The notes beneath the pieces were generated by a model. That model was not told the origin of the DNA. It did no database searches and saw nothing but the letters and a program-made list of their open reading frames with translations. Shown here piece after piece: positions 49,475-57,297 of a DNA stretch of 64,000 nt. Numbering within the stretch: the stretch's first letter is position 1; every line of letters starts with the position of its first letter. Origin of the DNA: Seonamhaeicola algicola (GTDB lineage Bacteria > Bacteroidota > Bacteroidia > Flavobacteriales > Flavobacteriaceae); contig NZ_VOSC01000025.1 in assembly GCF_007997385.1 (NCBI RefSeq), positions 186,292 through 250,291 of the forward strand. Reading direction: 5' to 3'. The translations under genes and the position numbers were made by a program.

Positions 49475-49732
49475 ATGATAGCGCAAATGTTATTAAAAAG
49501 TAAAGAAAAATCTACTTACAAAGAAGATACTGCTGGTGAAAAACCAATTAGAAGCGTTGCTAAAGCATTAAGTTGGAGAGTAGTTGGTACTTTAGATACG
49601 TTAGTTGTTTCTTATTTTTTAACAGGAAAAATAGCGGTTGCAGCGTCAATTGCATCGGTAGATTTTATTACAAAATTAATTTTATACTTTTTTCATGAAC
49701 GCGTGTGGAACGCTATTAAATGGGGAAAATAA
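49475..49732 (+). CDS. DUF2061 small membrane protein
   Basis: The 85-residue protein has the DUF2061 pattern: RSVAKALSWRVVGTLDTLVV, a short loop with TGKIAVAASIASVDFITKLIL, and FFHERVWNAIKWGK at the C-terminus, giving two membrane helices. The family is widely found next to sulfur-assimilation genes, though its function is not established. It is the first gene of the sulfate operon and overlaps a possible early cysH start by 13 bp. A second ATG lies at 49487. Confidence 0.85.
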   Translation: MIAQMLLKSKEKSTYKEDTAGEKPIRSVAKALSWRVVGTLDTLVVSYFLTGKIAVAASIASVDFITKLILYFFHERVWNAIKWGK

Positions 49733-49743
49733 TATATAAAAAC

Positions 49744-50364
49744 ATGTTTACAGAAGAACAAATACAAGGTTTAAACAAGGAATTTAAAAACGCTACACCT
49801 TCAGAAATTATAAAAAAAGCTTTTGAACTTAATACTAAAGCTGTAGTAACAACAAATTTTAGGCCGTACGAAGCTGCTATATTACATGCAGTTAGTAAAG
49901 AGGTTAAAGATATTCCTGTAGTATGGTGTGATACTGGTTATAATACACCGCAAACATATAAACATGCAGAGCAAGTTATTAAAGACTTGAGTTTAAACGT
50001 ATTCTTGTATGTGCCAAAACAAACAGCCTCACATAGAGATGTGGTTATGGGTATACCAAGTATAGATGATCCAAAACATGCTGAATTTACAGAGCAAGTT
50101 AAATTAGAACCATTTAGAAGAGCTATGGAGGCGCATAAGCCAAAAGTGTGGTTTACAAACTTGCGCCAAGGGCAAACAGCTTTTAGAAATAGTATTGATA
50201 TTTTTAGTTTAAGTGCCGATGGTGTTCTTAAAGTAAGTCCGTTTTACTATTGGTCTGATGAGAAATTAGATGCCTATTTAGAAGAAAATAATTTACCAAA
50301 CGAATTTAAATATTTTGATCCAACAAAAGCATTAGCAAATAGAGAATGCGGATTGCACGCTTAA
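49744..50364 (+). CDS. cysH: Phosphoadenylyl-sulfate (PAPS) reductase
   Basis: The 206-residue protein reduces the activated sulfate to sulfite. Seen are the nucleotide-binding TNFRPYEAAILHAVSKEV, PVVWCDTGYNTPQTYKHAEQ, WFTNLRQGQTAFR and the C-terminal ECGLHA with the catalytic Cys. The two-Cys pairs that hold a 4Fe-4S cluster in APS reductases are absent (LEPFRRAM where CCxxRKxxPL would be), so it looks like a PAPS-type enzyme, although no cysC is nearby. The ATG at 49744 is preferred for its A-rich context; ATG 49720 is the alternative and would overlap DUF2061. Confidence 0.9.
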   Translation: MFTEEQIQGLNKEFKNATPSEIIKKAFELNTKAVVTTNFRPYEAAILHAVSKEVKDIPVVWCDTGYNTPQTYKHAEQVIKDLSLNVFLYVPKQTASHRDVVMGIPSIDDPKHAEFTEQVKLEPFRRAMEAHKPKVWFTNLRQGQTAFRNSIDIFSLSADGVLKVSPFYYWSDEKLDAYLEENNLPNEFKYFDPTKALANRECGLHA

Positions 50365-50376
50365 CAACATAAGATT

Positions 50377-51282
50377 ATGAAGAAAGATACATCATATATT
50401 AACGCTTTAGAAAACGAAGCTATTTACATTATTAGAGAAGTAGCTGCTCAGTTTGAAAGACCAGTTTTATTATTCTCAGGAGGAAAAGATTCTATAACAC
50501 TTGTAAGGTTAGCGCAAAAAGCATTTTATCCGGCAAAAATTCCGTTTCCTTTAATGCACATTGATACAGGACATAATTTCCCTGAAACTATAGAATTTAG
50601 AGATAGGCTAGTTGAAGAATTAGGTTTAGAGCTTATTGTTAGAAACGTACAAGATTCTATTGATCAAGGAAAAGTAAAAGAAGAATCTGGCCGTTATGCA
50701 AGTAGAAATATGCTGCAAACAACCACACTTTTAGATGCTATTGAAGAATTTAAATTTGATGCTTGTATTGGTGGAGCCCGTAGAGATGAAGAAAAAGCAA
50801 GAGCAAAAGAACGTATTTTCTCTGTTCGTGATGATTTTGGGCAATGGGATGAAAAAAACCAAAGACCAGAATTGTTTGATATGTTAAACGGTGAAATTGA
50901 ATTAGGGCAAAACGTTCGCGTATTCCCAATTTCAAACTGGACAGAGTTAGATGTGTGGTCTTACATTGAAAAAGAAAACATTGAAATTCCGTCAATTTAT
51001 TTCGCACACAAACGTAAAGTATTCTTAAGAGACGGTATGATTTGGTCTGCTGAAGATGGTATTGTTTATAGAGACGACGAAGAAGAAGTAATTGAAGAAA
51101 TGGTGCGTTTTAGAACTGTTGGAGACATGAGTTGTACAGCAGCTGTATTGTCTGACGCTACAACTATAAACAAAGTAGTTGAAGAAATTAGAGATTCTTC
51201 AATTTCTGAACGTGGTGCCAGAATTGATGATAAACGTTCTGAAGCCGCTATGGAAAAACGTAAACAACAAGGGTATTTTTAA
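50377..51282 (+). CDS. cysD: Sulfate adenylyltransferase subunit 2
   Basis: The 301-residue small subunit of ATP sulfurylase has the PP-loop LLFSGGKDSITLVRLAQKA, HIDTGHNFPETIEFRD and SLRARRDEEKARAKE-type ARRDEEKARAKERIFS motif, with SNWTELDVWSYIE. Together with CysN it makes APS from sulfate and ATP. It follows cysH by 12 bp and is separated from cysN by an 81-bp gap that carries a palindromic repeat. Confidence 0.97.
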   Translation: MKKDTSYINALENEAIYIIREVAAQFERPVLLFSGGKDSITLVRLAQKAFYPAKIPFPLMHIDTGHNFPETIEFRDRLVEELGLELIVRNVQDSIDQGKVKEESGRYASRNMLQTTTLLDAIEEFKFDACIGGARRDEEKARAKERIFSVRDDFGQWDEKNQRPELFDMLNGEIELGQNVRVFPISNWTELDVWSYIEKENIEIPSIYFAHKRKVFLRDGMIWSAEDGIVYRDDEEEVIEEMVRFRTVGDMSCTAAVLSDATTINKVVEEIRDSSISERGARIDDKRSEAAMEKRKQQGYF

Positions 51283-51363: not shown

Positions 51364-52611
51364 ATGGAAGTATTAAAAATTGCAACAGCAGGAAGTGTAG
51401 ATGACGGTAAGAGTACATTAATAGGTAGAATTCTATATGATACAAAATCATTAACTACAGATAAGCTTGAAGCTATTGAAAAAACAAGTAAACAACGTGG
51501 GTATGATTATTTAGATTTTTCTTTAGCTACCGATGGTTTAGTGGCAGAAAGAGAACAAGGTATCACCATTGATGTAGCTCATATTTATTTTTCAACAAAA
51601 AAGAAAAGTTACATAATAGCAGATACACCTGGGCATGTTGAGTATACACGTAACATGGTAACTGGTGCATCAACATCACAAGCTTCAATTATTTTAATTG
51701 ATGCCAGAAAAGGTGTTATAGAGCAAACCAATCGTCACTTTTTTATTAATAACTTATTACGCATTAAAGATGTTGTAGTTGCTATTAATAAAATGGATTT
51801 AGTTGATTACTCTGAAGAAGTTTACAACAAAATTAAAGCAGATTTTGAAGATTTAATGAGTAAACGAGATTACCAAGGACAAAACATTTCATTTATACCA
51901 GTAAGCGCTTTAAAGGGCGATAATGTTGTAAATAAATCTGAAAAAATGTCTTGGTATAAAGGAGAATCATTATTAGAGCATTTAGAAAAATTAGATAAAG
52001 CCGATATTTTTAACACAGGCACACCGCGTTTTCCAGTGCAATATGTAATTCGTCCAAAAACTGAAGAGTACCATGATTACAGAGGGTATGCTGGTAAAGT
52101 TTATGGTGGTAATTTAAGTGTTGGTGATGAGGTTGTGGTATTACCATCGCAAACAAAATCTAGAATAAAAGATATTTATTTCTACAACGAAAAGTTTGAA
52201 ACAGCATCAAGACGCTCTTCAGTTACTATAACTTTAGAAGATGATGTAAACGTTAGCAGAGGCGATATGATTGTTAAAGCTGATGATTTACCAACAATTG
52301 AAAAGCAATTTACAGCAAATGTATGTTGGATGGATTCTAAGCAATTAACACCAGGTGCAAAATATACAGTACAACATGGTGTAAATAAAGTATTAGCTAA
52401 AGTAAATGCTATTCACCATAAAATAAACCCAGACTATTCAGGTATAGAAGAAGATGTAACAGGTATAGGAATGAATGATATTGCTGAGGTTAGCTTCAAA
52501 TTAAACAAACCTATTTTTTACGATAAATTTAAAGATCACAGAACAAACGGTTCATTTATAATTATAGATCCGCAGTCAAACAGTACAGTTGGTGCAGGTT
52601 TTATACAGTAA
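51364..52611 (+). CDS. cysN: Sulfate adenylyltransferase subunit 1 (GTPase)
   Basis: The 415-residue GTPase subunit has G1 TAGSVDDGKSTLIGRILY, the DTPGHVEYTRNM G3, NKMDLVD G4, and elongation-factor-like beta domains at the C-terminus. GTP hydrolysis drives APS formation by CysD. The length matches stand-alone CysN without the CysC kinase fusion. A 171-bp non-coding unit with inverted repeats separates it from the sulfite reductase gene. Confidence 0.96.
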   Translation: MEVLKIATAGSVDDGKSTLIGRILYDTKSLTTDKLEAIEKTSKQRGYDYLDFSLATDGLVAEREQGITIDVAHIYFSTKKKSYIIADTPGHVEYTRNMVTGASTSQASIILIDARKGVIEQTNRHFFINNLLRIKDVVVAINKMDLVDYSEEVYNKIKADFEDLMSKRDYQGQNISFIPVSALKGDNVVNKSEKMSWYKGESLLEHLEKLDKADIFNTGTPRFPVQYVIRPKTEEYHDYRGYAGKVYGGNLSVGDEVVVLPSQTKSRIKDIYFYNEKFETASRRSSVTITLEDDVNVSRGDMIVKADDLPTIEKQFTANVCWMDSKQLTPGAKYTVQHGVNKVLAKVNAIHHKINPDYSGIEEDVTGIGMNDIAEVSFKLNKPIFYDKFKDHRTNGSFIIIDPQSNSTVGAGFIQ

Positions 52612-52782: not shown

Positions 52783-54876
52783 ATGCAAAGTTTTGAAACA
52801 GAAATAGAAAATCCGGTTGTTCAAAAAGATATAATTGAATTAGCTAAAAAAATTGAATTATTTCACAACGGAAAAATTGATGAAGAAAAATTTAGAAGTC
52901 TTCGTTTAGCGCGTGGTGTGTATGGGCAGAGACAAGAAGGCGTTCAAATGATTCGTATTAAAGTGCCTTACGGTAAATTAAAAAGTAATCAATTACGCCG
53001 TATTGCTGATGTTTCTGATGAATATTCTCGTGGGCGTTTGCACATAACAACACGTCAAGATATCCAAATTCACTACGTAGATTTAAATAGAACACCAGAG
53101 CTTTGGGCAGAACTTGAAAAAGATGAAGTTACCGTGCGTGAAGCTTGTGGTAACGTGGTAAGAAACGTAACTGCTTCTGAAACTGCAGGTATTGATGTTA
53201 ATGAACCTTTTGATGTATCACCATATGCAGATGCTTTGTATAAATTCTTTTTACGAAACCCAATTTGCCAAGAAATGGGCCGTAAATTTAAAGTGTCTTT
53301 CTCGTCTTCTAATGCAGATACAGGTTTATCATATTTACATGATATTGGATACATTGCTAAAGAAAAAAATGGTGTTCGTGGTTTTAAAGTGATGGTAGCT
53401 GGCGGACTTGGGTCTCAGCCACGTCATGCCGATGTGTTGTATGATTTTGTTGAAACCGATAAAATCATCCCAATAATGGAAGGTGTTTTAAGAATTTTTG
53501 ATCGTTACGGTGAGCGTAAAAGTCGTGCCAAAGCAAGAATGAAATTCTTAGTAAAAGATATAGGTTTAGAAGCATTTAAAGAACTAATTGATAACGAACA
53601 AAAAGCCATAGAGTTTAAAAGTGTTCCAATTGATGCCAATGCTTACGTAGCATCTAAACCAGTTCAAGTTGAAGCACCTAAAGTTGAAATTAAAAACGAA
53701 GAAGCGTTCAATTTATGGAAATCTACAAACCTAATACCTCAAAAGCAAGCAGGTTATGTTGCTATTGGTATTAAAGTTTTATTAGGTGATTTCTATACAG
53801 ATAAAGCACGTTTATTAGCCAAATTAGTAGATAATTATGCAGCTGGCGAAGTGCGTTTAACATTACGCCAAAACATAGTAATTCCTTTTGTTAAAGAAGA
53901 ATTAGTGCCATTTTTCTATCAAGAATTAGAAAAGTTAGGTTTTGTAGAGGCAGGTTACAACAAAGCAGTTGATATTACAGCATGCCCAGGTACAGATACA
54001 TGTAATTTAGGTATTGCAAGTAGTACAGGAATTGCCGAAGAGTTAGAGCGCGTTATAAAAACCGAATATCCGCAATATTTAAAAAACGAAGATTTAGTTA
54101 TTAAAATTAGTGGTTGTATGAATGCTTGTGGGCAACACAATATGGCAAATATTGGTTTCCAAGGTATGACAGTGCGCACACCAGATAAATTAGTGGCGCC
54201 CGCTTTACAAGTGCTTTTAGGTGGAGGAAACCAAGGAGATGGAAATGCAACTTTTGCTGATAAAGTTGTAAAAGTACCAAGTAGAAGAGGGCCTGAAGCT
54301 TTACGAAGAATTTTAAATGATTATGAAGCTAATGCAAACGGAAAACAGTTTGTTGAGTACTATTTAGAGAAAGGACAGAAATATTTTTACGACTTCTTAC
54401 AAGACTTACAAGACGCAACCAATTTAACAGAATTAGATTTTATTGATTGGGGTACAGAAGAAAAGTACGTTAAAGCTATTGGTGTAGGTGAATGTGCCGG
54501 TGTAGTTATAGATTTAATTGCTACATTGTTTTTTGAAAGCGAAGAGAAAATAGATAATGCTAAAGAATCTTTTGAAAATGAAGTATATTCGGGGGCAATC
54601 TATTTAGCATATCAGTCGTTTGTAAATTCTGCCAAGGCACTATTGCTAGCAGAAAACAAAAAAACAAACACACATGCAGGTATTATTTCACAGTTTGATG
54701 AAGTTTTTGTTGAAAGCGAAAAAATTAATTTAGGAGCATCTTTTTCTGATATAATTTATCAAATAAATAAAAATGCGCCGTCTAAAGAATTTGCTATAAA
54801 CTACATTGCTAGTGCCGAAAAATTCTTAGCTGCAGTAAGAGCTTTTAGAGAAGCTGAACAAACTAAAACTGCTTAA
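52783..54876 (+). CDS. Ferredoxin-type sulfite reductase with a C-terminal HEPN-like domain
   Basis: The 697-residue protein has two ferredoxin-like/nitrite-sulfite reductase repeats (about 1-540), with RGRLHITTRQDIQIHYVDL, ITACPGTDTCNLGIASSTG and ISGCMNACGQHNMANIGF; Cys near 400, 406, 445 and 449 bind the siroheme-4Fe-4S centre. It reduces sulfite to sulfide (nitrite reductase is an alternative, but the operon argues for sulfite). The C-terminal 140 residues (about 555-697; ECAGVVIDLIATLFFESEEK, YLAYQSFVNSAKALLLAEN) look like an alpha-helical HEPN domain, absent from usual sulfite reductases. Downstream genes make siroheme and a flavoprotein electron donor. Confidence 0.9.
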   Translation: MQSFETEIENPVVQKDIIELAKKIELFHNGKIDEEKFRSLRLARGVYGQRQEGVQMIRIKVPYGKLKSNQLRRIADVSDEYSRGRLHITTRQDIQIHYVDLNRTPELWAELEKDEVTVREACGNVVRNVTASETAGIDVNEPFDVSPYADALYKFFLRNPICQEMGRKFKVSFSSSNADTGLSYLHDIGYIAKEKNGVRGFKVMVAGGLGSQPRHADVLYDFVETDKIIPIMEGVLRIFDRYGERKSRAKARMKFLVKDIGLEAFKELIDNEQKAIEFKSVPIDANAYVASKPVQVEAPKVEIKNEEAFNLWKSTNLIPQKQAGYVAIGIKVLLGDFYTDKARLLAKLVDNYAAGEVRLTLRQNIVIPFVKEELVPFFYQELEKLGFVEAGYNKAVDITACPGTDTCNLGIASSTGIAEELERVIKTEYPQYLKNEDLVIKISGCMNACGQHNMANIGFQGMTVRTPDKLVAPALQVLLGGGNQGDGNATFADKVVKVPSRRGPEALRRILNDYEANANGKQFVEYYLEKGQKYFYDFLQDLQDATNLTELDFIDWGTEEKYVKAIGVGECAGVVIDLIATLFFESEEKIDNAKESFENEVYSGAIYLAYQSFVNSAKALLLAENKKTNTHAGIISQFDEVFVESEKINLGASFSDIIYQINKNAPSKEFAINYIASAEKFLAAVRAFREAEQTKTA

Positions 54877-54889
54877 GCAATAAAATAAA

Positions 54890-55651
54890 ATGAGTATAAA
54901 AACCCCAATATTAACAGTTGTAGGCGCGGGCCCAGGTGATGAAGATTTAATAACACTTAAAGCAATTAAGGCTATAGAATCTGCAAACGTTATCCTATAT
55001 GATGCGCTTATAAATGAAAGTTTACTAAAATATGCTTCTGCTGATGCAGAACTTATTTTTGTAGGTAAACGTAGGGGTTGCTATGCGTTTCAGCAAGAGC
55101 AAATAAATGAACTCATTGTATCAAAAGCCAAAGAAAAAGGTCATGTTGTAAGGTTAAAAGGTGGTGATCCATTTATTTTTGGTCGTGGTGCCGAAGAAAT
55201 TGACTATGTGAGACAATTTGGGTTAGAAACTTTTGTGGTTCCTGGCATTTCGTCATCAATTGCGGTGCCGGCATATCAAGGTATTCCGTTAACAAAACGT
55301 GGCGCAGCCGAAAGTTTTTGGGTAATTACAGGCACAACCAAACAACATAAATTATCTAATGATGTTGCTTTAGCTGCAAAATCAACGGCCACAATAGTTA
55401 TTTTAATGGGTATGGGTAAGCTAGGTGAAATAGTAAACATATTTTCAAAAGAAAATAAACAAAACACACCCATTGCTATTATTCAAAATGGTACGCGAGA
55501 TAACGAAAGTGTAGGGATTGGCACTATTCAAACCATAGAAAAAATTGTTGAAGAAAAACAATTAGCAAACCCAGCAATTATTGTTATTGGAGATGTTGTA
55601 AAAGAAAGAGCAATATTAACTCAGGTTTACCAAGAAGTAACTGGAAATTAA
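54890..55651 (+). CDS. cobA: Uroporphyrinogen-III C-methyltransferase
   Basis: The 253-residue SAM-dependent enzyme makes precorrin-2, the first step to siroheme. Motifs include VGAGPGDEDLITLKA, YDALINESLL, GCYAFQQEQIN, VVRLKGGDPFIFGRGAEE and GTTKQHKL. It follows the sulfite reductase by 13 bp and is 3 bp before the next siroheme gene, so cofactor supply is tied to the enzyme that needs it. Confidence 0.96.
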   Translation: MSIKTPILTVVGAGPGDEDLITLKAIKAIESANVILYDALINESLLKYASADAELIFVGKRRGCYAFQQEQINELIVSKAKEKGHVVRLKGGDPFIFGRGAEEIDYVRQFGLETFVVPGISSSIAVPAYQGIPLTKRGAAESFWVITGTTKQHKLSNDVALAAKSTATIVILMGMGKLGEIVNIFSKENKQNTPIAIIQNGTRDNESVGIGTIQTIEKIVEEKQLANPAIIVIGDVVKERAILTQVYQEVTGN

Positions 55652-55654
55652 ATT

Positions 55655-56245
55655 ATGGAACGCAATAATTTATACCCTATTTTTTTAAAGGTAAAACAGC
55701 TTAATGTACTAATTATTGGCGGTGGTAATGTTGCTGAAGAAAAATTAACGTTCTTATTAAAGTCTAGTCCAGATGCTTGTGTAACAATGGTGTCACCAAT
55801 GTTTAGAAACGGCACTGTATATTTAGCAAAAAAAGGTAATGTTACACTAATAAATGATGTTTATAAAAAAGACTATTTACAAGGGCAACACATGGTAGTT
55901 GCTACTACCGATGTTCCAGAGGTAAATGTACAAGTGTATAAAGATTGTAGGGCAGAAGCTAAATTGGTAAACGTAGCAGATAACCCGCCCTATTGCGATT
56001 TTTACATGGGTGGTATTGTTACCAAAGGCAACGTTAAAGTGGCAATAAGTACCAATGGGAAATCGCCAACAATGGCAAAAAGATTACGACAGTTTTTTGA
56101 GGAAGTCATTCCTGAAAACATTGATGATCTTGTGAAAAATTTAAATGAATATAGAAAAACAATAAAAGGGGATTTTGAAGAAAAAGTTGAAAAACTTAAT
56201 GAATTCACCAAAGGAATAATTGAAAACAAAGATTCAGAGAAATGA
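55655..56245 (+). CDS. Siroheme synthase dehydrogenase/ferrochelatase (MET8/CysG-N-like)
   Basis: The 196-residue protein has an NAD-binding N-terminus (NVLIIGGGNVAEEKLTFLL), followed by CDFYMGGIVTKGNVKVAISTNGKSP, as in the CysG N-terminal domain and MET8. It oxidises precorrin-2 to sirohydrochlorin and may insert iron. It overlaps the reductase gene by 4 bp (ATGA). Confidence 0.9.
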   Translation: MERNNLYPIFLKVKQLNVLIIGGGNVAEEKLTFLLKSSPDACVTMVSPMFRNGTVYLAKKGNVTLINDVYKKDYLQGQHMVVATTDVPEVNVQVYKDCRAEAKLVNVADNPPYCDFYMGGIVTKGNVKVAISTNGKSPTMAKRLRQFFEEVIPENIDDLVKNLNEYRKTIKGDFEEKVEKLNEFTKGIIENKDSEK

Positions 56246-57297
56246 TTAAAACAGATATAATAATAATTGGAGCAGGCCCAACAGGGTTATTCACAGTATT
56301 CGAAGCTGGATTATTAAAACTAAAATGCCATTTAATTGATGCATTGCCACAACCAGGTGGACAGTGCTCTGAGTTATATCCAAAAAAGCCTATTTATGAT
56401 ATTCCAGGGTTTCCTGAAATTTTAGCAGGCGATTTAACAAAAAACTTACTAGAACAAGGTAAGCAATTCGAGCCTGGATTTACTTTAGGCGAGCGTGCTG
56501 ATACTATTGAAAAACAAGAAGACGGTTCGTTTATTGTTACAACAAATAAAGGAACGCAACACCAAGCGCCAGTGGTAGCAATTGCTAGTGGTTTAGGTAG
56601 TTTTGAGCCACGTAAACCACAACTTGAAAACCTTGCCGATTATGAAGATAAAGGTGTAGAGTACATGATAAAAGAGCCAGAAATGTACCGCGATAAAAAT
56701 GTGGTAATTGCTGGTGGAGGTGACTCTGCTTTAGATTGGAGTATCTTTCTAGCCGATGTTGCAAAAAGTGTAACATTAGTACACCGCCGTAATGAATTTA
56801 GAGGGCACTTAGATTCTGTTGAAAAAGTTGGAGAATTAAAAAGAGAAGGGAAAATAAACCTTATTACACCTGCCGAAGTAACAAATATTTTAGGCAACGG
56901 TAAAGTTGAAGCTATTGAAATTACAAAACAAGGTGAAGCTCCTTATACTTTAGAAACCGATCATTTTATTCCACTATTTGGCTTATCGCCAAAACTAGGT
57001 CCAATAGCAAACTGGGGCTTAGAAATTGAAAAAAATGCTATTAAAGTTAATAATGCTTTAGATTATCAAACTAACATTCCAGGTATTTTCGCCATAGGCG
57101 ATGGTAATTATTACCCAGGAAAGTTAAAGTTAATACTTTGTGGTTTCCACGAAGCAACAATTATGTGTCAAGCAGCATATAAAATTATCAATCCTGGTAA
57201 AAAATTCGTATTAAAATATACAACAGTTTCAGGTGTAGATGGTTTTGATGGTACACGTAAAGAAGCCCCAAAAGCAGTAGTGCAAGCTATAGATTAA
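56242..57297 (+). CDS. Ferredoxin-NADP+ reductase-like flavoprotein (thioredoxin-reductase type)
   Basis: The 351-residue protein has an FAD motif (IIIGAGPTGLFTVFEAG), DALPQPGGQCSELYPKKPIYD, the NADPH motif VVIAGGGDSALDWSIFLA with HRRNEFRGH, and the C-terminal FAD motif GIFAIGDGNYYPG. There is no CxxC, so it is of the ferredoxin/flavodoxin-NADP+ reductase type, not thioredoxin reductase. It likely supplies electrons to the sulfite reductase, as cysJ is absent. A 13-bp terminator stem follows. Confidence 0.9.
   Translation: MIKTDIIIIGAGPTGLFTVFEAGLLKLKCHLIDALPQPGGQCSELYPKKPIYDIPGFPEILAGDLTKNLLEQGKQFEPGFTLGERADTIEKQEDGSFIVTTNKGTQHQAPVVAIASGLGSFEPRKPQLENLADYEDKGVEYMIKEPEMYRDKNVVIAGGGDSALDWSIFLADVAKSVTLVHRRNEFRGHLDSVEKVGELKREGKINLITPAEVTNILGNGKVEAIEITKQGEAPYTLETDHFIPLFGLSPKLGPIANWGLEIEKNAIKVNNALDYQTNIPGIFAIGDGNYYPGKLKLILCGFHEATIMCQAAYKIINPGKKFVLKYTTVSGVDGFDGTRKEAPKAVVQAID

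Follow-up and report, generated by a model that had tools for sequence, protein, structure and literature searches.

The closest described relatives of the protein considered here are known from two sides, as siroheme reductases and as HEPN proteins. Mycobacterium tuberculosis NirA (PDB 1zj8) and the plant nitrite and sulfite reductases (NiR and SiR) are ferredoxin-type siroheme reductases with chains of approximately 535–570 residues and no HEPN domain. A K-x-K motif at the active site marks the sulfite reductases, with K-x-N found in the nitrite reductases. In the dissimilatory system a separate protein, DsrC, ends in a flexible arm whose next-to-last residue is an invariant cysteine; crystal structures show this arm extending to the siroheme, and it is able to bind sulfur (PMC3397948). 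Among HEPN proteins (PF05168), AF0298 (PDB 2hsb) stands alone and represents a type in which an alternative catalytic histidine is known (PMC3710099). The closest prior record is the family HEPN-T (Cpin_6617) in Table 1 of Anantharaman et al. (2013), entered as 'No' for the Rx4-6H motif; the fusions noted for it, in Bacteroidetes and Nitrospirae, are to a 'dyad of ferredoxin domains' (gi: 381187024; PMC3710099). The absent motif and the ferredoxin-dyad fusion both resemble the protein described below, and the row probably represents the same fusion of a sulfite reductase (SIR) to HEPN, as SIRs contain a pair of PF03460 'ferredoxin-like half domains'. It differs from the present account in making no mention of the enzyme, of a GEC motif, of TusA or of a partner protein X, and the enzyme is taken to be unnamed in that survey because 'reductase', 'siroheme' and 'sulfur' are missing from its main text (PMC3710099). 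In a search of the open-access literature (subscription journals lay outside it), sulfite reductases were nowhere described with HEPN, the GEC motif, X or the TusA form. The fusion appears to be an already recorded architecture, with its spread, joint motif, TusA form and X appearing to be new.

The window, i.e., the whole stretch of 64,000 nucleotides of Seonamhaeicola algicola (NZ_VOSC01000025.1) that was analyzed, contains such a SIR-HEPN fusion among the following genes:

49720–50364, + strand: cysH, PAPS/APS reductase (PF01507; NCBIfam PRK02090/TIGR02057 below cut-off)
50377–51282, + strand: cysD, sulfate adenylyltransferase small subunit (TIGR02039 over cut-off)
51364–52611, + strand: cysN, sulfate adenylyltransferase large subunit (TIGR02034 over cut-off)
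52783–54876, + strand: SIR-HEPN fusion gene, 697-aa siroheme/[4Fe-4S] assimilatory sulfite reductase with a C-terminal HEPN domain (Pfam PF03460 and PF01077, two copies each, and PF05168; AlphaFold/Foldseek)
54890–55651, + strand: cobA, uroporphyrinogen-III methyltransferase for siroheme synthesis (TIGR01469 over cut-off), 13 bases past the SIR stop codon
55655–56245, + strand: cysG N-terminal/Met8-type precorrin-2 dehydrogenase for siroheme synthesis (TIGR01470 over cut-off)
56242–57297, + strand: thioredoxin-reductase-like pyridine nucleotide oxidoreductase (Pyr_redox_2)

The order cysH-cysD-cysN-SIR-cobA-cysG(N-terminal)-FNR-like represents a complete sulfate-assimilation and siroheme operon. 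It is followed, 3' of the FNR-like gene, by a hexapeptide serine-acetyltransferase-like gene and then a cysteine-synthase-like gene. From its fold class and its place in the operon, the product of 56242–57297 is probably a ferredoxin-NADP reductase (FNR) feeding the SIR, and is likely to be the electron donor for the ferredoxin that serves it. A thioredoxin-reductase-like FNR gene was also identified within the SIR operons of two other loci (L086 and L087). The only other NIR_SIR protein of the genome lies within an 848-aa frame and by its length is probably a NirB-type nitrite reductase.

The fusion protein can be divided as follows:

52783–54498, + strand: SIR core, residues 1–572, with two NIR_SIR_ferr and two NIR_SIR copies (Pfam)
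54487–54498, + strand: G-E-C-A joint, residues 569–572, invariant in 60/60 sequences and forming the C-terminus in a tail-less sister class
54499–54873, + strand: HEPN domain, residues 573–697 (PF05168, E 1.6e-7; 2hsb, TM 0.79), with helices at 578–598, 602–623, 631–643, 654–662 and 668–696 in the AlphaFold model
54748–54768, + strand: expected position of the HEPN nuclease motif, where D656...N662 replace R...H (columns aligned to the wide family described below)

The paired modules of the core, its four [4Fe-4S]-siroheme cysteines and its active-site K-x-K place it within the siroheme assimilatory sulfite reductases (CysI/NirA type). The cluster cysteines (C401, C407, C445 and C449) and R167-K168-x-K170 were found to be invariant in an alignment of 60 sequences. 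Foldseek returned NirA (1zj8) and the plant NiR and SiR as top matches of the core model, with the match to the fusion protein covering the core only. The cut-offs of the curated NCBIfam equivalogs for named SIR/NIR proteins were not reached (231 bits of 523 for the NirA family; 229 of 594 for ferredoxin-nitrite reductase), and by its sequence the core is a divergent subfamily lying below them. Its operon and residues suggest that the enzyme would reduce sulfite to sulfide.

With regard to the C-terminus, PF05168 was matched at residues 583–647 (E 1.6e-7, 31.9 bits against a Pfam cut-off of 22). The best solved relative of the tail by sequence is 2hsb (E 5.8e-4), which a nine-sequence profile found at E 1.3e-5. 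An AlphaFold model built on 60 sequences from genomes (mean pLDDT 86.9, pTM 0.86) predicts a helical bundle for the tail, and Foldseek aligned it with 2hsb (TM(target) 0.79, rmsd 2.5 Å), 1ufb (0.71) and the sacsin HEPN domain 3o10 (0.64). On the strength of the sequence match above cut-off, the profile match and the predicted fold, the tail is a genuine member of the HEPN superfamily. The first-pass annotation had described a helical, HEPN-like C-terminus on the basis of the letters alone, had proposed HMM and structure comparison of the tail, and had named a fold unrelated to HEPN as the outcome that would speak against it; both comparisons gave HEPN proteins. Its boundaries of 54450–54876 began slightly early, as the last SIR residues (...WGTEEKYVKAIGVGECA) are still encoded by 54450–54498, and held for the remainder, with the HEPN part at approximately 54499–54873.

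Core and tail are joined at G-E-C-A 569–572. All 60 rows of the alignment share this motif, among them the tail-less protein of one Bacteroidota genome (G187). In the AlphaFold model, residues 571–576 form a low-confidence loop, and confidence is lowest at the joint. GEC was present in 165 of 171 proteins, the six without it being five CysI-type Pseudomonadota proteins and the protein of locus L286. Thirteen tail-less relatives from three phyla end at GEC or at most 12 residues past it, typically as ...GEGECAV. Proteins of this tail-less class (L262–L266, L280–L283, L287–L289 and L078) end in ...GEGECA(V/T/A), with an invariant cysteine near the terminus that is reminiscent of the arm of DsrC. 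It should be noted that DsrC is a separate protein serving a dissimilatory enzyme. The likeness is an analogy and carries no claim of common descent, and the GEC arm may or may not enter the active site.

The combination of HEPN with a siroheme reductase had been regarded as unexpected, and its distribution in the Bacteroidota had been suggested as a check. The tail was found in 78 of 151 sampled genomes of the host's family, always within a frame of approximately 700 aa or, on very short contigs, a shorter one, with the exception of one weak extra match. When 396 genomes of the phylum were searched with the core alone, 54 SIRs were found at ≥48% core identity; 53 of them lie in frames of 694–746 aa, and the remaining one (G344) is cut by the contig edge. 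Of the SIRs at 37–44% identity in the phylum, five have longer frames with the tail and one (G187) is tail-less. None of the members of the host's family that lack the tail in the phylum sample has a SIR of the window's clade. Among the sampled Bacteroidia SIRs of this clade, all complete ones carry the tail.

A profile centered on a distant Bacteroidota tail was run against GTDB species genomes, which gave at least 561 confirmed relatives. The best 80 of these are records from Chloroflexota, Myxococcota, Acidobacteriota, Actinomycetota, Verrucomicrobiota, Cyanobacteriota, Pseudomonadota, Neomarinimicrobiota, Binatota and Sumerlaeota, and include the complete cyanobacterial genome of Picosynechococcus sp. 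PCC 7117. Because most of the records are MAG contigs, individual phylum assignments may be in error. One contig filed as Bifidobacterium breve (L175), whose SIR groups with the Miltoncostaeales, is probably a mislabelled or contaminated MAG. These wide-type tails are fused to a SIR core wherever the contig allows. They are mostly missed by the Pfam HEPN model, and their own profile independently finds 2hsb (E 4.7e-5). Bacteroidia-type and wide-type tails are homologous by hhalign (E 3.2e-7, probability 93%). When the cores alone were placed in a maximum-likelihood tree, the two types each formed one clade (SH-aLRT 100) and were sisters at 92, this being a quick tree with long branches.

A tail on every SIR relative outside the Bacteroidota was considered and rejected, as the scan had required the tail and core-only searches revealed tail-less relatives in Chloroflexota and Acidobacteriota. 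In 201 Chloroflexota genomes the tailed type occurs only in the genome on which the search was centered, and approximately 22 genomes hold relatives at 37–44% identity, mostly in frames of 600–700 aa. Approximately 16 of 199 Acidobacteriota genomes carry the tailed type, with a few tail-less relatives near 600 aa. Among the Cyanobacteria it was found in 2 of 146, the rest having at most distant Sir/NirA-like relatives. From these searches the fusion is general in the Bacteroidia SIRs of the window's clade and patchy elsewhere. The joining of HEPN to a SIR is thus real, as the first-pass annotation had held, and is not an isolated oddity: as judged from sequence comparison, the HEPN tail is an old, conserved part of one class of assimilatory sulfite reductase spread over about ten phyla.

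Two further proteins are associated with the position behind the tail. The first, termed protein X (approximately 195 aa), is encoded by the next gene after SIR-HEPN in 80 of 80 wide-clade loci, a set chosen by the tail, at a median distance of 14 nt in the 71 measurable cases. It is also the next gene in six of six Acidobacteriota loci found by the core alone, and among the 201 Chloroflexota genomes it is confined to the single genome that has the tailed SIR. An example of its loci is L197:5704–6267 in Picosynechococcus sp. PCC 7117, with 79 more within L133–L212, and the residues D42, V43, H48, P53, G73, D125 and R126 of X are invariant. Its structure was modeled with confidence (pLDDT 95.5). 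No relatives of X were found in Pfam, NCBIfam or PDB sequences, nor by Foldseek at E ≤1e-3 in PDB or BFVD.

The second is the sulfur carrier TusA (PF01206). A TusA domain is fused behind the helical segment of the SIR in many Pseudomonadota with small genomes, and the Acidobacteriota sample contributed one such protein. Profile comparison detected the domain in all 11 proteins retrieved, and a Pfam scan of four of these gave E 1e-14 to 6e-20. SIRs with C-terminal TusA were seen at L275–L279, L290–L294 and L285, mostly in small Pseudomonadota genomes. The link between the helical segment of these proteins and HEPN is only weak (hhalign probability 51%, E 1.5e-4, 50 columns). In two Bacteroidota (L076 and L077) a separate TusA gene lies directly after SIR-HEPN. 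Neither X nor TusA was found anywhere in the genome of the window, where the gene after SIR-HEPN is not X and the protein belongs to the sister type that lacks it.

It is suggested, with confidence somewhat short of even, that the HEPN tail has no catalytic activity and serves for docking or as a scaffold at the end of the SIR where sulfur is handled. The bundle, following directly on the GEC(A) arm, would fix this one-cysteine arm beside the SIR core and offer a docking surface at that end of the enzyme, on which TusA (fused or as the next gene) or X would dock in other lineages. The cysteine arm may then reach the siroheme while HEPN contacts TusA or X, by which sulfur transfer would be affected. 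In the Bacteroidia, whose tested genomes lack TusA and X, HEPN would retain only a holding or assembly role, and the docked protein could be ferredoxin or FNR. The docking idea rests on other lineages, because the window's genome has neither TusA nor X, and the many SIRs that work without any such tail count against it.

A more specific form of this proposal, drawn by analogy and considered unlikely, would make the GEC cysteine, Cys571 in the window's protein, an in-cis counterpart of the DsrC arm. The cysteine would hold sulfur, HEPN would dock the carrier (TusA or X), and the sulfur would be passed on protein-bound rather than as free sulfide; in the Bacteroidia the arm and HEPN would remain, with another protein as carrier.

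The tail may instead serve assembly only, through dimerization of the SIR or anchoring of ferredoxin or FNR, with no role in sulfur transfer. Many HEPN domains dimerize, the conservation of the tail lies mostly in hydrophobic core residues, and the operon contains an FNR-like gene. However, the TusA domain or gene or X behind the tail, and the invariant GEC, are left unexplained, and this reading is held to be rather unlikely. It is less probable that the tail is a regulatory domain tuning SIR activity through a bound ligand, i.e., a nucleotide such as PAPS, APS or ppGpp. The pathway does contain nucleotide intermediates, and the sacsin HEPN domain has been reported as a nucleotide binder. The tail columns common to Bacteroidota-type and wide-type at ≥85%, however, are Ala, Tyr, Leu, Ile and Phe, with no conserved charged cluster shared by the two groups, and the partner genes TusA and X are again left unexplained; a regulatory role of this kind is thought to be unlikely.

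An RNase or toxin-type HEPN, tying sulfur assimilation to RNA cleavage or defence, appears highly improbable, although the HEPN superfamily consists mostly of RNases (PMC3710099). The canonical R and H columns are both filled in 25 of 74 wide-type tails, but the pair occurs in none of the 57 Bacteroidota-type tails, in line with the missing RxxxxH motif reported earlier for the window's protein. The R column of the wide group varies between R, Q, N, S and H. Counts of Rx4-6H there equal those of shuffles (38 seen, 37.5 expected), and in the Bacteroidota-type tails, with the motif allowed at any position, they are near shuffle level (13 seen, 8 expected). An RNase role through the Rx5H of distant tails had seemed real in three Bacteroidota sequences, with an RYLFSRH-like motif in the right place, and was rejected as the R is unconserved over the 74 wide-type tails and the counts match shuffles. 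The alternative catalytic His of AF0298 (PMC3710099) aligns with His631 of the tail, which is unconserved: 29 of the 57 Bacteroidota-type tails have H there, 27 have Q and one has Y, and H never occurs in the wide group. Neither Rx4-6H nor an alternative His with a basic residue is therefore conserved as in HEPN ribonucleases. Of the binding rather than nuclease role put forward in the first-pass annotation, the non-nuclease part is the better reading, and the data bear neither for nor against the RNA or nucleotide binding.

The association with toxin and defence systems was not borne out. PADLOC gave no match for the tail or the SIR, the two sequences searched, and the adjoining genes are those of housekeeping sulfate assimilation and siroheme synthesis, with no MNT antitoxin, restriction-modification or other defence genes among them. 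A docking or scaffold role fits better than RNA cleavage or defence, because a non-nuclease HEPN follows an invariant cysteine motif within a sulfur operon and, in other lineages, TusA or X occupies the slot behind it. That the tail is an old fusion carried along neutrally, with no function, is scarcely credible: tail-less relatives exist, but dN/dS against six relatives is 0.07–0.13 for the tail and 0.06–0.08 for the core (dS being near or above saturation in several pairs), which indicates that purifying selection keeps the tail, and it is retained across the class and several phyla, all complete members found in the Bacteroidia and wide clades having it.

HEPN, usually read as a sign of toxins or defence, is here an integral component of a housekeeping enzyme of sulfur metabolism, and a HEPN annotation alone is therefore insufficient for calling a defence gene. 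The sulfite reductase class is marked by a core that ends in an invariant cysteine motif, by TusA fusions and by a conserved, unannotated partner protein, and it opens the direct question of whether an assimilatory sulfite reductase passes sulfur to a protein carrier. Elsewhere in the host genome (L002:1486–3243; genome G000, contig C2) there is a second HEPN protein of 586 aa, in which the match is N-terminal and which is not a SIR. Small stand-alone ORFs with weak matches to the tail profile (E 1e-7 to 1e-3) were also detected in other Bacteroidota (L080–L085), and it is possible that these are relatives of the HEPN domain before its fusion.
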